From Leptolyngbya sp. FACHB-261 (GTDB lineage: Bacteria > Cyanobacteriota > Cyanobacteriia > FACHB-261): 64,000 bases of DNA. A program made the translations under genes and the position numbers. The notes under the pieces are model-generated. The model did no database searches and was not told the origin of the DNA. It worked only from the letters and a program-made list of their open reading frames with translations. The DNA lies in contig NZ_JACJPL010000024.1 in NCBI RefSeq assembly GCF_014696065.1, positions 186,001 through 250,000 on the forward strand, read 5' to 3'. Of this stretch, positions 3,836 through 51,922 are shown one piece after another; position 1 is the stretch's first letter; every line of letters starts with the position of its first letter.

Positions 3836-4596
3836 GGAGCAGTACCCTTTCGGCCAAACATGACGACAGGATGCAGGCGAAAATGCCCCTTTGCGGTAAG
3901 AGTGAAGTAAGTGTCTTGGTCTGAAAATCTTGGTTCGGTTTGAGTACGCCCAATAATGGGTAGTACTTTGTGCCAAAGGCTACTGGTTGTGGAGTCAACA
4001 TAGCCCTTACACCAGAGCTGCTTGACAACCCCACGTACCGCCTCTAACGGTTGATTTAGAATGTATGACAAATTCTCAACAGTCAATGGTCTTCGTTCTA
4101 AGGCTTGCAGTACATCCCACTCATGGGTTGTTCCTAAAAGCTCTGCTGGCACCGTCAGCAAATACTCTAAAAAGTTTTTGATCTCTCTTGAAATTGGACT
4201 GAATTGCTCCCGAGCTTTGGCTTTTCTAATCTGATGTCTGGCCTCAGCTCTAGGATTCACTGCCGTTAAAATCTCAATAACAGCTTTGCCTAGGTTTTTG
4301 TCTAGCTCGTTTTCACTAGATTCTAGTTTGCGAGCACTCAGCAGAGGCAAAGCTTTAGCCCGCGACTGAATCGTATACTGCTTTTCCAAGCTGGTATGGG
4401 CAGCTTGATAGAGTTGATCGAAACCTTCATGCCTCTCTATCAATTGCTTCAGTCTTGTGAGCCCAGCTTCCCAATCGTGATCTAAGGTTAAGCCTGCTCG
4501 ATGAATCTCCTGATGTAAGTCTTCTGGCAGCTCTGAGTTGATCTGAACCAGCGCGGTCAGGAAGGCTTGAAGCGTGATTGCGTCTTCGACTTTCAT
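3832..4596 (-). CDS. unknown protein with C-terminal winged-helix-like segment
   Basis: ATG at 4596 gives 254 residues; a TTG at 4638 would add 14. The N-terminal two thirds is charged and mostly helical. The C-terminal part, about 165-235, reads like a winged-helix fold: WDVLQALERRPLTVENLS, then AVRGVVKQLWCKGYVD, then a beta-wing-like YFTLTAKGHFRL ending. This suggests DNA binding or a protein-interaction winged helix, but the family was not recognised. It is followed by a membrane protein whose GTG start overlaps its stop codon. A membrane-tethered regulator pair is one reading of the two genes, and it is an inference only. Confidence 0.6.
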   Translation of the reverse strand: MKVEDAITLQAFLTALVQINSELPEDLHQEIHRAGLTLDHDWEAGLTRLKQLIERHEGFDQLYQAAHTSLEKQYTIQSRAKALPLLSARKLESSENELDKNLGKAVIEILTAVNPRAEARHQIRKAKAREQFSPISREIKNFLEYLLTVPAELLGTTHEWDVLQALERRPLTVENLSYILNQPLEAVRGVVKQLWCKGYVDSTTSSLWHKVLPIIGRTQTEPRFSDQDTYFTLTAKGHFRLHPVVMFGRKGTAP

Positions 4597-48677: not shown

Positions 48678-49148
48678 CTAATCAGCTTCCACTTCAGCCT
48701 GCGCCTTAGTGGACTTGCGGAACCGCTGTCCCATTTTGTTCACTGCACTATCTAGACCCAGCCGCTTGCCAGTTGCCTTTGCCGAGTTATAAGTTAACCG
48801 TGCCGCTGCATAAGCTTCACTGCCGACTAACATTTGCGTTCCTTCTACCAGTTCTTGCAACTGATTGAGTGACATCAAAATAGTGCTTAGTGCCTCAAAT
48901 AATTCCAAATCTCGACGCATTTCTGCCACATCAATACAACCGGGAATCAAGCTAGGATTTTGGGCAGCCAGAGCTACAGCATCATGCACAAAAGCCCGGG
49001 ACTTTTGCCCTAGCTTGGACAGTTGGCGGCGTTCCTCTCGGGTCAAACCCACCAGAAATGGCATCTTTTCGCGGATTATTTCAACTTCTGCAATCACAGC
49101 CTGTAGCTGTTCGTCGGAAAGATGAGCACTAATACTACCAAGTGTCAT
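48678..49148 (-). CDS. small helical protein of unknown function next to the 21-bp array
   Basis: ATG 49148 (MTLGSISAHLSDEQLQ) gives 156 residues and has a purine-rich AAGGGGCAG before it. ATG 49193 in the same frame is the alternative. The protein is predicted nearly all helical, with LSDEQLQAVIAEVEIIREKM, a REERRQLSKLGQKSRAF basic helix, and a basic C-terminal region RFRKSTKAQ. No signal peptide, membrane helix or known domain was recognised. Its upstream region holds a possible promoter and, from 180 bases before the start, the eleven-unit 21-bp array. Confidence 0.7.
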   Translation of the reverse strand: MTLGSISAHLSDEQLQAVIAEVEIIREKMPFLVGLTREERRQLSKLGQKSRAFVHDAVALAAQNPSLIPGCIDVAEMRRDLELFEALSTILMSLNQLQELVEGTQMLVGSEAYAAARLTYNSAKATGKRLGLDSAVNKMGQRFRKSTKAQAEVEAD

Positions 49149-49237
49149 GCTGACTGCCCCTTGAAGGCTTATTAAGTAAATCGCTAAGCCCATAGAGGCC
49201 GCTTCTTTAGCAGTTCCCCTTTAACAGCCTGCGCAAA

Positions 49238-49267
49238 CCTGTATTCACACTGAAAAAATCAAGTCAA
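49238..49267 (-). promoter_or_regulatory. possible sigma-70-type promoter of the unknown gene at 48678-49148
   Basis: Reading the minus strand, TTGACT (49262-49267) is followed after 18 bases by TACAGG (49238-49243). The -35 box is good and the -10 box is moderate. It lies between the array and the gene start. Confidence 0.35.
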
Positions 49268-49331
49268 CTTACGACGCGACTAGGTGAATTTTCAGAGCTT
49301 AATTCGCTCACGGCCCTCAAATCGACATCAA

Positions 49332-49562
49332 TGTCATTTTGAGCCGCAACAATGTCACTTCAGATCCCGCTGGTCTCACTTCGGACCGCGCCAGTCTCAC
49401 TTTGACCCACAAAGATGTCACTTAAAGTGACGTTGGTCTCACTCTGGACGCCGCCAGTCTCACTTTGAGCCGCAACGATGTCACTTCAAGCGACGCTGGT
49501 CTCACTTTGGACTGCATCAGTCTCACTTTGACCCACGAAGCTGTCACTTTGAGTGACATTCA
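49332..49562. repeat. tandem array of eleven 21-bp units with a 63-bp higher-order period
   Basis: Eleven units of exactly 21 bp follow each other without gaps (unit starts 49332, 49353, 49374 and so on to 49542). Each unit begins TGTCACTT or TCTCACTT with little variation, while its second half varies. The second base of the units reads G G C, C G C, C G C, C G. The unit ends fall into three classes (-CAACAA-like, -CGCTGG-like, -CGCCAG-like), so three units form a 63-bp repeat present 3.7 times. Unit 5 contains a GTCACTT/AAGTGAC palindrome and unit 11 a TGTCACT/AGTGACA palindrome. All six frames are broken by stops or are very short. The period equals two helical turns. Confidence 0.95.
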
Positions 49563-49608
49563 TCTAAATTCAAGGTCAGAGCGTTGCACTTTTAACAGCT
49601 TGCTAAGG

Positions 49609-49998
49609 TTATTGACCTTCCACTAAGGCTTTGTAGGCCTCAGCTGTGAGTGTTTCAGCCAGCTCGCTGCTGTTGCTAAGACTAATTTTGAGCAGCCAAC
49701 CCTCACCGTAGGGGTCTTCGCCAATCTTTTCGGGCGCATCAACTACAGCAGCATTGACTTCCACTACACTGCCACTCACCGGCGCATAGAGATCGCCCAC
49801 TGCTTTGACCGATTCCACACTGCCGAAGCTTTGGCCCTGCTCTAGAACAGTTCCGACCTCTGGCAACTCGACAAACACCACATCTCCCAACTGATCCAAG
49901 GCAAAGGCTGAGATGCCAATTGTTGCCACCTCACCCTCCAAGCGCACGTACTCATGGGAGTCGCGGTATTTCAGATCGGCAGGATAGGTGAGAGTCAT
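49609..49998 (-). CDS. gcvH: glycine cleavage system H protein
   Basis: GcvH carries the aminomethyl group of glycine on a lipoyl arm between GcvP and GcvT. The 129-residue protein has the lipoylation site Lys65 in GSVESVKAVGDLYAP. The conserved YPADLKYRDSHEYVR start and DPYGEGWLLKI end complete the fold. Start ATG 49998 and length are normal. It follows gcvT on the same strand, with 100 bp between them that carry two tandem 12-bp palindromes. The 21-bp array begins 46 bases after its stop codon. Confidence 0.97.
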   Translation of the reverse strand: MTLTYPADLKYRDSHEYVRLEGEVATIGISAFALDQLGDVVFVELPEVGTVLEQGQSFGSVESVKAVGDLYAPVSGSVVEVNAAVVDAPEKIGEDPYGEGWLLKISLSNSSELAETLTAEAYKALVEGQ

Positions 49999-50034: not shown

Positions 50035-50067
50035 CTTAGATCTAAGCAGCCTTAGATCTAAGACAGC
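50035..50067. repeat. two tandem 16/17-bp units, each with a 12-bp palindrome, between gcvT and gcvH
   Basis: CTTAGATCTAAG, a perfect palindrome, occurs at 50035-50046 and 50051-50062. With the following CAGC / ACAGC they form a 16- and a 17-bp unit. They could be two operator sites, or transcript hairpins that set the gcvT:gcvH ratio. Confidence 0.75.
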
Positions 50068-51286: not shown

Positions 51287-51922
51287 ATGGCAGAGCGTCC
51301 CATTAAGAAATCCGAGTTGGCAGCCCGCAAAGCAGCCGAAGGCCAAACCGCCGGTCCCGAAACCGAAACCCCTGCACCTCAGGAGCAAGGCAGCCGAGAG
51401 CGTTCTAAACCCCAACTGAAGAGCAGCGCTGAACGCAGCGAGCGCAGCAGCGGCGGTGAACGCAGCGGCAGCGGTGAACGCAGTCAACGCGGTGGCGGTG
51501 GCGGCGGTGAGCGTGGCGACCGTCGCGGTGGTCGGGGCAAACGCGGTGAACAGGCGGCGCCATCTGGCGTAAACCCAGCTCTAGCCAGAGGTCCTAGACC
51601 CAGCAAGGCCAAGCCAGCTGAGCCCGAAGCCCCTGAACTTGAGGCTACTGAACTTGAAGCCACCGAAGCAGAAACGACTGGGTCTGAAAATACTGAGCTT
51701 GAGACCAGCGAAGTCGCAACCGAAAGCGAAGTCGCAACCGAAGCAGTAGCTGCGCCGACAACTAGCGAAGTCGCAACCGAAGCAGTGAGTGAGCCTGCGG
51801 CTGCGCCGACAACTAGCGAAGCTCCAGCTGAACCGGCAACCAGTGAAGCTCCAACTGAAGCAGCAGCTGAGGGCGAAACGACTGAGGGTGAAACACCTGA
51901 AAAGCTAGTCGCAGCAGAATAA
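51287..51922 (+). CDS. intrinsically disordered protein, basic RGG-rich front and acidic repeat tail
   Basis: The 211-residue frame is low in complexity throughout. Residues 1-30 (RPIKKSELAARKAAEG) are charged. Residues 50-100 are Arg/Gly/Ser-rich (GGERSGSGERS, RRGGRGKRG). Residues 110-211 are Glu/Thr/Ala/Pro-rich with recurring SEVATEAV and AAPTTSEAPAE blocks; a 22-base stretch of the coding DNA is repeated at about 51749 and 51798. RGG segments often bind RNA, and an opposite-charge tail suggests phase-separating or scaffold behaviour, but this is inference. Strong codon periodicity and a clean ATG after gcvT's divergent start support a real gene. No family was recognised. Confidence 0.6.
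   Translation: MAERPIKKSELAARKAAEGQTAGPETETPAPQEQGSRERSKPQLKSSAERSERSSGGERSGSGERSQRGGGGGGERGDRRGGRGKRGEQAAPSGVNPALARGPRPSKAKPAEPEAPELEATELEATEAETTGSENTELETSEVATESEVATEAVAAPTTSEVATEAVSEPAAAPTTSEAPAEPATSEAPTEAAAEGETTEGETPEKLVAAE

Follow-up and report, generated by a model that had tools for sequence, protein, structure and literature searches.

Arrays of short DNA repeats that lie beside the gene for a small protein and support cooperative binding are familiar from ParR/parC and from the omega protein on its heptad repeats. Multicellular prokaryotes, for their part, carry NTP-dependent conflict systems involving TIR, NACHT, NB-ARC and TPR genes (Kaur et al. 2020, 2021, eLife 52696, 70394); the main texts of these two papers make no mention of tandem, direct or DNA repeats. 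Here we describe a non-coding array of 21-bp units in a window (i.e. the whole stretch of DNA analysed) of 64,000 nucleotides from the 6.95 Mb genome of Leptolyngbya sp. FACHB-261, and its pairing with a gene for a 171-residue protein, orf171. From sequence comparison this pairing is widespread and seemingly undescribed: a search of the open-access literature returned no description of such 21-bp arrays.

Structure of the window array

The core array (49332–49562, assigned to neither strand) consists of eleven gapless 21-bp units, 231 bp in total, with a period of exactly 21 throughout and zero indels. Self-identity is 0.55 at a lag of 21, 0.77 at 63 and 0.82 at 126; none of 20,000 shuffles attained the lag-21 value, and the 63-bp (ABC) higher-order pattern stands against permutation of the unit order (p = 2e-4), so that the gapless array and three-unit superstructure of the original prediction are upheld and its proposed growth by copying of 63-bp blocks is plausible. 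The array very likely runs on as two weaker units in the same register (49563–49604), which bring the total to 13 and end 4 bp from the gcvH stop codon. The motif TCACTT, thought to begin every unit in the form T-G/C-TCACTT, is present in nine of the eleven but missing from unit 1 (TGTCATTT) and unit 6 (TCTCACTC), and whilst the 63-bp pattern is real, unit 1 also departs from the G/C pattern at position 2 that was taken to follow it. Of two full palindromes anticipated, one was found: unit 5, a class A unit, holds the sole full 15-bp palindrome among the eleven (GTCACTTAAAGTGAC, 49417–49431), units 8 (GTCACTTCAAGCGAC) and 11 (GTCACTTTGAGTGAC) being merely near-palindromes. No terminator-like match other than the unit 5 palindrome was found in the region, and a scan of 49150–49650 for sigma-70-like promoters gave zero matches.

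As predicted, the array lies between gcvH (49609–49998, minus strand) and a gene then unknown, orf171 (48678–49193, minus strand), upstream of the latter and separated from its start by a 138-bp spacer (49194–49331). The neighbours in the window are gcvH and a hybrid histidine kinase, with no defence gene adjoining this copy. Two other repeats were seen nearby: two TTAGATCTAA palindromes in tandem in the gcvH–gcvT interval (50035–50067), and in-frame 18- and 27-bp repeats (51443–51859) within a 211-aa Ser/Glu-rich ORF (51287–51922).

Like a CRISPR array, the window array is an intergenic repeat array in defence-rich genomes; unlike one, it is gapless, with neighbouring units 55% identical, and has neither spacers nor Cas proteins, as the original prediction had held. 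It also recalls the STRR heptamers, since intergenic tandem repeats are common in cyanobacteria and (TCACTTC)n matches the search pattern, but it has no 7-bp substructure (lag-7 identity 0.22) and is paired with a gene family. A genome-wide scan for TSTCACTT x3 was set aside as returning mostly (TCACTTC)n heptamer repeats, across phyla, and the matches of a loose TCACTT pattern on viral contigs were all unspecific.

A coding repeat of seven residues, decayed or active, would give a 21-bp period (seven codons), and could draw on the substitutions between the 63-bp blocks of the window array, which peak at one codon phase (21/12/6), and on the one frame often open in fresh arrays. However, stops in all six frames of 17 arrays occur at the column-shuffled expectation, two fall within the best window frame, the DNA design is symmetric, and periods of 41 and 43 are found at some loci of the orf171 type or of the second family described below. 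The coding-like phase bias thus failed the stop and period tests; because 41 and 43 are not multiples of three, a coding heptapeptide repeat is refuted for the family, and what governs the period is a spacing of two helical turns, not a run of seven codons. We accordingly retain the non-coding assignment and find the coding reading scarcely credible.

Pairing with the orf171 family

Genes recurred at the flanks of arrays, and the pairing with orf171 was therefore examined, giving the key result of this study. Of 59 genomes, 10 contain homologues of the 171-aa ORF, the FACHB-261 genome itself giving 11 matches, and in a first set of loci an array lay beside the homologue in 26 of 28 cases. An independent set of 48 loci with high-scoring homologues was drawn by profile; among 390 cyanobacterial genomes the profile search found the family in 80, and outside the cyanobacteria it recovered members from Bacteroidota (Hymenobacter and others) and Acidobacteriota, loci of which are in the set. 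By a fixed rule, a 21- or 42-bp array lay within 800 bp at 38 of the 48 (79%), against 75 of 1940 random control genes (3.9%; Fisher p = 2.6e-41), a statistic that takes loci without phylogenetic correction, in which some cases near contig ends are blurred, and in which loci from nine genomes fetched for TCACTT-type repeats are not fully blind, those of the class-wide search being so. At four more loci of this set the rule assigned a period of 14, but unit-level analysis revealed 21-bp dyad arrays; a Thiodictyon homologue is without a clear array. If the module is defined as an orf171-family gene with an array of 20.5–21.5-bp period within 800 bp, it is present in the window and at most homologous loci. 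The suspected link to the gene now called orf171 is thus general, most homologues carrying a 21-bp array, whereas a tie to gcvH found no support, the window array being instead one example of a recurrent pair.

The family, which nearly always adjoins a 21-bp array, is unclassified and all-alpha, with proteins of ~160 aa, and the AlphaFold model of orf171 is likewise all-alpha with one 57-residue helix. No relatives were found in Pfam, NCBIfam, PADLOC or PHROG, structural searches gave nothing significant in PDB or viral libraries, and the predicted fold contains no recognisable DNA-binding domain. A tblastn search of phages with an orf171 homologue as query gave no match.

Shared architecture of the arrays

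The arrays (median 13 units) lie downstream of the orf171-family gene in 56 cases, at a median of 28 bp past the stop, and upstream in 12. Unit sequences vary by locus; common to them is a design of one 15-bp and one 6-bp dyad, whose axes self-reverse-complement tests place 10.5 bp from one another in each unit. Averaging 50 arrays, aligned on the axis only, gave the consensus AANNTT-SRAGYTYNRARCTYS, and dyad symmetry reached z > 2 in 49 of 68 arrays (mean z 2.9). Taken over its full length, the window array lacks significant symmetry (z ~0.3), which only its A units show; at this z it matches the family in the position of the dyad axis and in its core, CTTTGAGC/GCTCAAAG, which agrees with the family dyad core GYTYNRAR.

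Matches in the flanks of 20 arrays are in register in 39 cases, against ~2 expected, whilst the 50 off-register matches are close to the chance number; these in-register units and the periods of 41 and 43 support the helical phasing proposed at the outset. Could the arrays simply be neutral local tandem duplications, tolerated beside these genes? Their units vary widely in sequence and have diverged inside arrays, on average ~14 of 21 positions matching the consensus, as such hitchhiking would allow. It is nevertheless disfavoured by the excess of pairing over control genes, by a register that is held although 857 units bear 5639 mismatches, and by a dyad consensus common to arrays across phyla, and we judge it quite improbable.

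Positions near both dyad axes are AT-rich, which together with the two-turn phasing would suit a structural DNA element (a bend, a nucleoid anchor or a decoy for invader proteins) acting through a general nucleoid protein, not orf171. The 10.5-bp AT component is, however, just weakly above the null, and the similarity of two arrays rises with the identity of their proteins (Mantel r = 0.62, p < 0.0005), so that private units which follow the relatedness of the orf171 homologues speak for a dedicated partner; a purely structural role accordingly seems distinctly unlikely, and the nucleoid anchor suggested at the outset gained no specific support. Co-divergence of array and protein could arise from linked inheritance alone.

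No asymmetry between G-U and A-C was seen and within-unit compensation is almost nil, which points to a symmetry that matters at the level of DNA more than in a folded RNA. This bears directly on the idea that the array is a non-coding RNA repeat, i.e. an RNA antitoxin of the type III toxin-antitoxin kind acting on the orf171 product, which the linkage to a ~170-aa protein gene amid defence neighbourhoods and the small hairpins possible in a minus-strand transcript might suggest. RNA fold z-scores (−2.6, −1.5) are no better than expected of a palindromic array, Rfam gave no convincing family and none above threshold, the array is mostly downstream of the gene, and the all-alpha protein matches no known toxin family in Pfam, NCBIfam, PADLOC or PHROG. 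We therefore give an RNA antitoxin little chance.

Other arrays and a second protein family

The exact window-array sequence is single-copy in its genome, where a three-unit ABC remnant also lies at C27:242675, and BLASTN against 59 genomes (its own and the nearest relatives in the collection searched, which share only the class) gave no match outside that genome. A search for the core with 21-bp spacing thus yielded no second full TCACTT array, but the period and dyad design recurs: stretches of the same genome contain at least seven further non-coding 21-bp arrays with different units, and it is therefore this design, not the TCACTT letters, that is common. Such non-coding 21-bp arrays, their units mostly unrelated, emerged from an unbiased lag scan covering 864 kb of the genome; the 80 kb sampled from each of ten other cyanobacteria contained no 21-bp arrays. 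The unit CTCACTTGAAACAGGAACGTT forms arrays in several further families of cyanobacteria, and also in the named Nostocales genomes Nostoc linckia, Pelatocladus and Fischerella. BLASTN of plasmids with the arrays matched nothing.

Several arrays of the FACHB-261 genome, at least three, have no known orf171-family neighbour. Two of these (C27:171397–171642 and C27:317839–318033) have similar units (CCAAC-TGAG...), and each lies beside an alpha/beta-hydrolase-like gene, not orf171; the third (C31:389968–390224) adjoins a TIR-like gene, both likenesses being judged by eye. A further array (C31:229317–229569) adjoins the gene for a 236-aa helical-looking protein, and the genes beside the two C31 arrays possibly represent further partner families. 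Mixed 21/22-bp arrays at C27:59444–59623 and 137681–137837, rich in CCCTTCC/GGAAGGG and with indels, are unlike the strict arrays. In another phylum, Geomonas limicola (L375) carries, near a TSTCACTT match, an array with the 21-bp palindromic unit TGTCACTTAGCTTAAGTGAGC; no orf171 homologue was found in its genome.

A second small helical family (~135 aa, containing EYEMAGGVRKSER) adjoins 21-, 41- or 42-bp arrays at L212:10364–10744 (C27 of the FACHB-261 genome), L196:2312–2749, L208:2460–2909 and L211:2353–2805, and further at L516 (around 4001–4315) and C31:238499–238858 of the FACHB-261 genome. Multiple copies of it occur in 62 of 291 cyanobacterial genomes, and it has no detectable homology to orf171; its model contains a 54-residue helix, and a structural search with it was without match.

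Genes downstream of the pair

The gene downstream of the pair has the same sense at 20 of 22 mechanically chosen loci; among the kinds assigned are type I and IIG restriction, ThsB/TIR, SMEK-NACHT, NNH1-NACHT, NB-ARC and STAND-type ATPases. Counting as defence-type a PADLOC match at 1e-8 or a NACHT/NB-ARC/STAND assignment, a rule fixed after the matches had been seen, such a gene is present at 13 of 22 loci against 3 of 20 random controls (p = 0.004), the control proteins having been scanned by PADLOC alone and two test proteins left out of that scan. Two of the three control matches resemble broad ABC-ATPase matches. In view of the breadth of these matches, the uneven scanning and the post-hoc rule, we regard the enrichment as modest, with a direction that suggests that antiphage defence genes often follow the orf171-array pair.

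This arrangement, a constant orf171 and array followed by very different genes according to locus, with arrays that abut the start of the next gene, might mark a recombination border, i.e. a recombinogenic or site-specific exchange platform that swaps defence genes behind orf171; the 63- and 42-bp higher-order copying likewise speaks for recombination inside arrays. On the other side, orf171 matches no recombinase or transposase family, arrays within one genome are unlike one another and so offer little homology for exchange, and pure recombination needs neither strict register nor dyads. We consider a recombination border unlikely.

Proposed function and relation to known systems

Comparison of sequences yields the pairing of gene and array, their co-divergence, a period of two turns, a dyad design common to the arrays and the frequent placement ahead of defence genes; it is from these that we infer that the array is bound, by which protein, and that it regulates. 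We see an even chance that orf171-type genes and their arrays form a two-part module, in which a private phased dyad array would serve as a cooperative operator-like platform. The array, with its ~13 dyad-symmetric 21-bp units, would be the DNA half of this module; its phased dyads would be bound cooperatively on one DNA face by a protein that dimerises or polymerises. The orf171 product, with its long helix and basic tail, is the likeliest such protein, a partner being the alternative. Binding may control transcription both of the module's own gene and of the defence operon next to it, which is often costly, and a separate array sequence for each paralogue would avoid cross-talk. Counting against the module, the array is upstream of orf171 in the window and downstream at most loci; the predicted fold without a recognisable DNA-binding domain or PDB match, the weak symmetry of the window array, the Thiodictyon homologue, the window copy with no adjoining defence gene and the FACHB-261 arrays that have no known family neighbour weigh in the same direction.

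More tentatively, and with the balance somewhat against it, the pair may belong to an unrecognised defence-associated regulatory or sensing system, in which small helical proteins, multi-copy and specific to each paralogue, would gather on phased dyad arrays of their own and so hold adjoining antiphage operons silent or poised, orf171 and the unrelated ~135-aa family having converged on the same 21-bp design. If such proposals are true, many uncharacterised multi-copy genes of cyanobacteria and other phyla would acquire a specified partner in DNA and a role open to testing, whilst junk-like non-coding tandem arrays would become predictable from the adjoining gene. The two-turn dyad geometry provides a clean experimental handle, i.e. 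half-turn insertions, and a general means of controlling dangerous defence genes is suggested by the restriction, TIR and NACHT genes that the pair precedes.

The orf171-array pair resembles partition centromere arrays in that a small protein gene adjoins a short-repeat array, but orf171 occurs in up to 11 copies per genome, differs in sequence and predicted fold, and is linked to 21-bp units with two dyads; no ParA/ParM-type motor gene lies beside the array in the window, the recurrent neighbours at other loci being defence genes. With type III toxin-antitoxin systems (ToxIN-like) it shares a repeat array and a ~170-aa protein gene in a defence context, whereas its arrays are DNA-level dyads, mostly downstream, and its protein is unrelated and all-alpha. 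The genes downstream of the pair are of the same kinds as those of the NTP-dependent conflict systems (eLife 52696, 70394).
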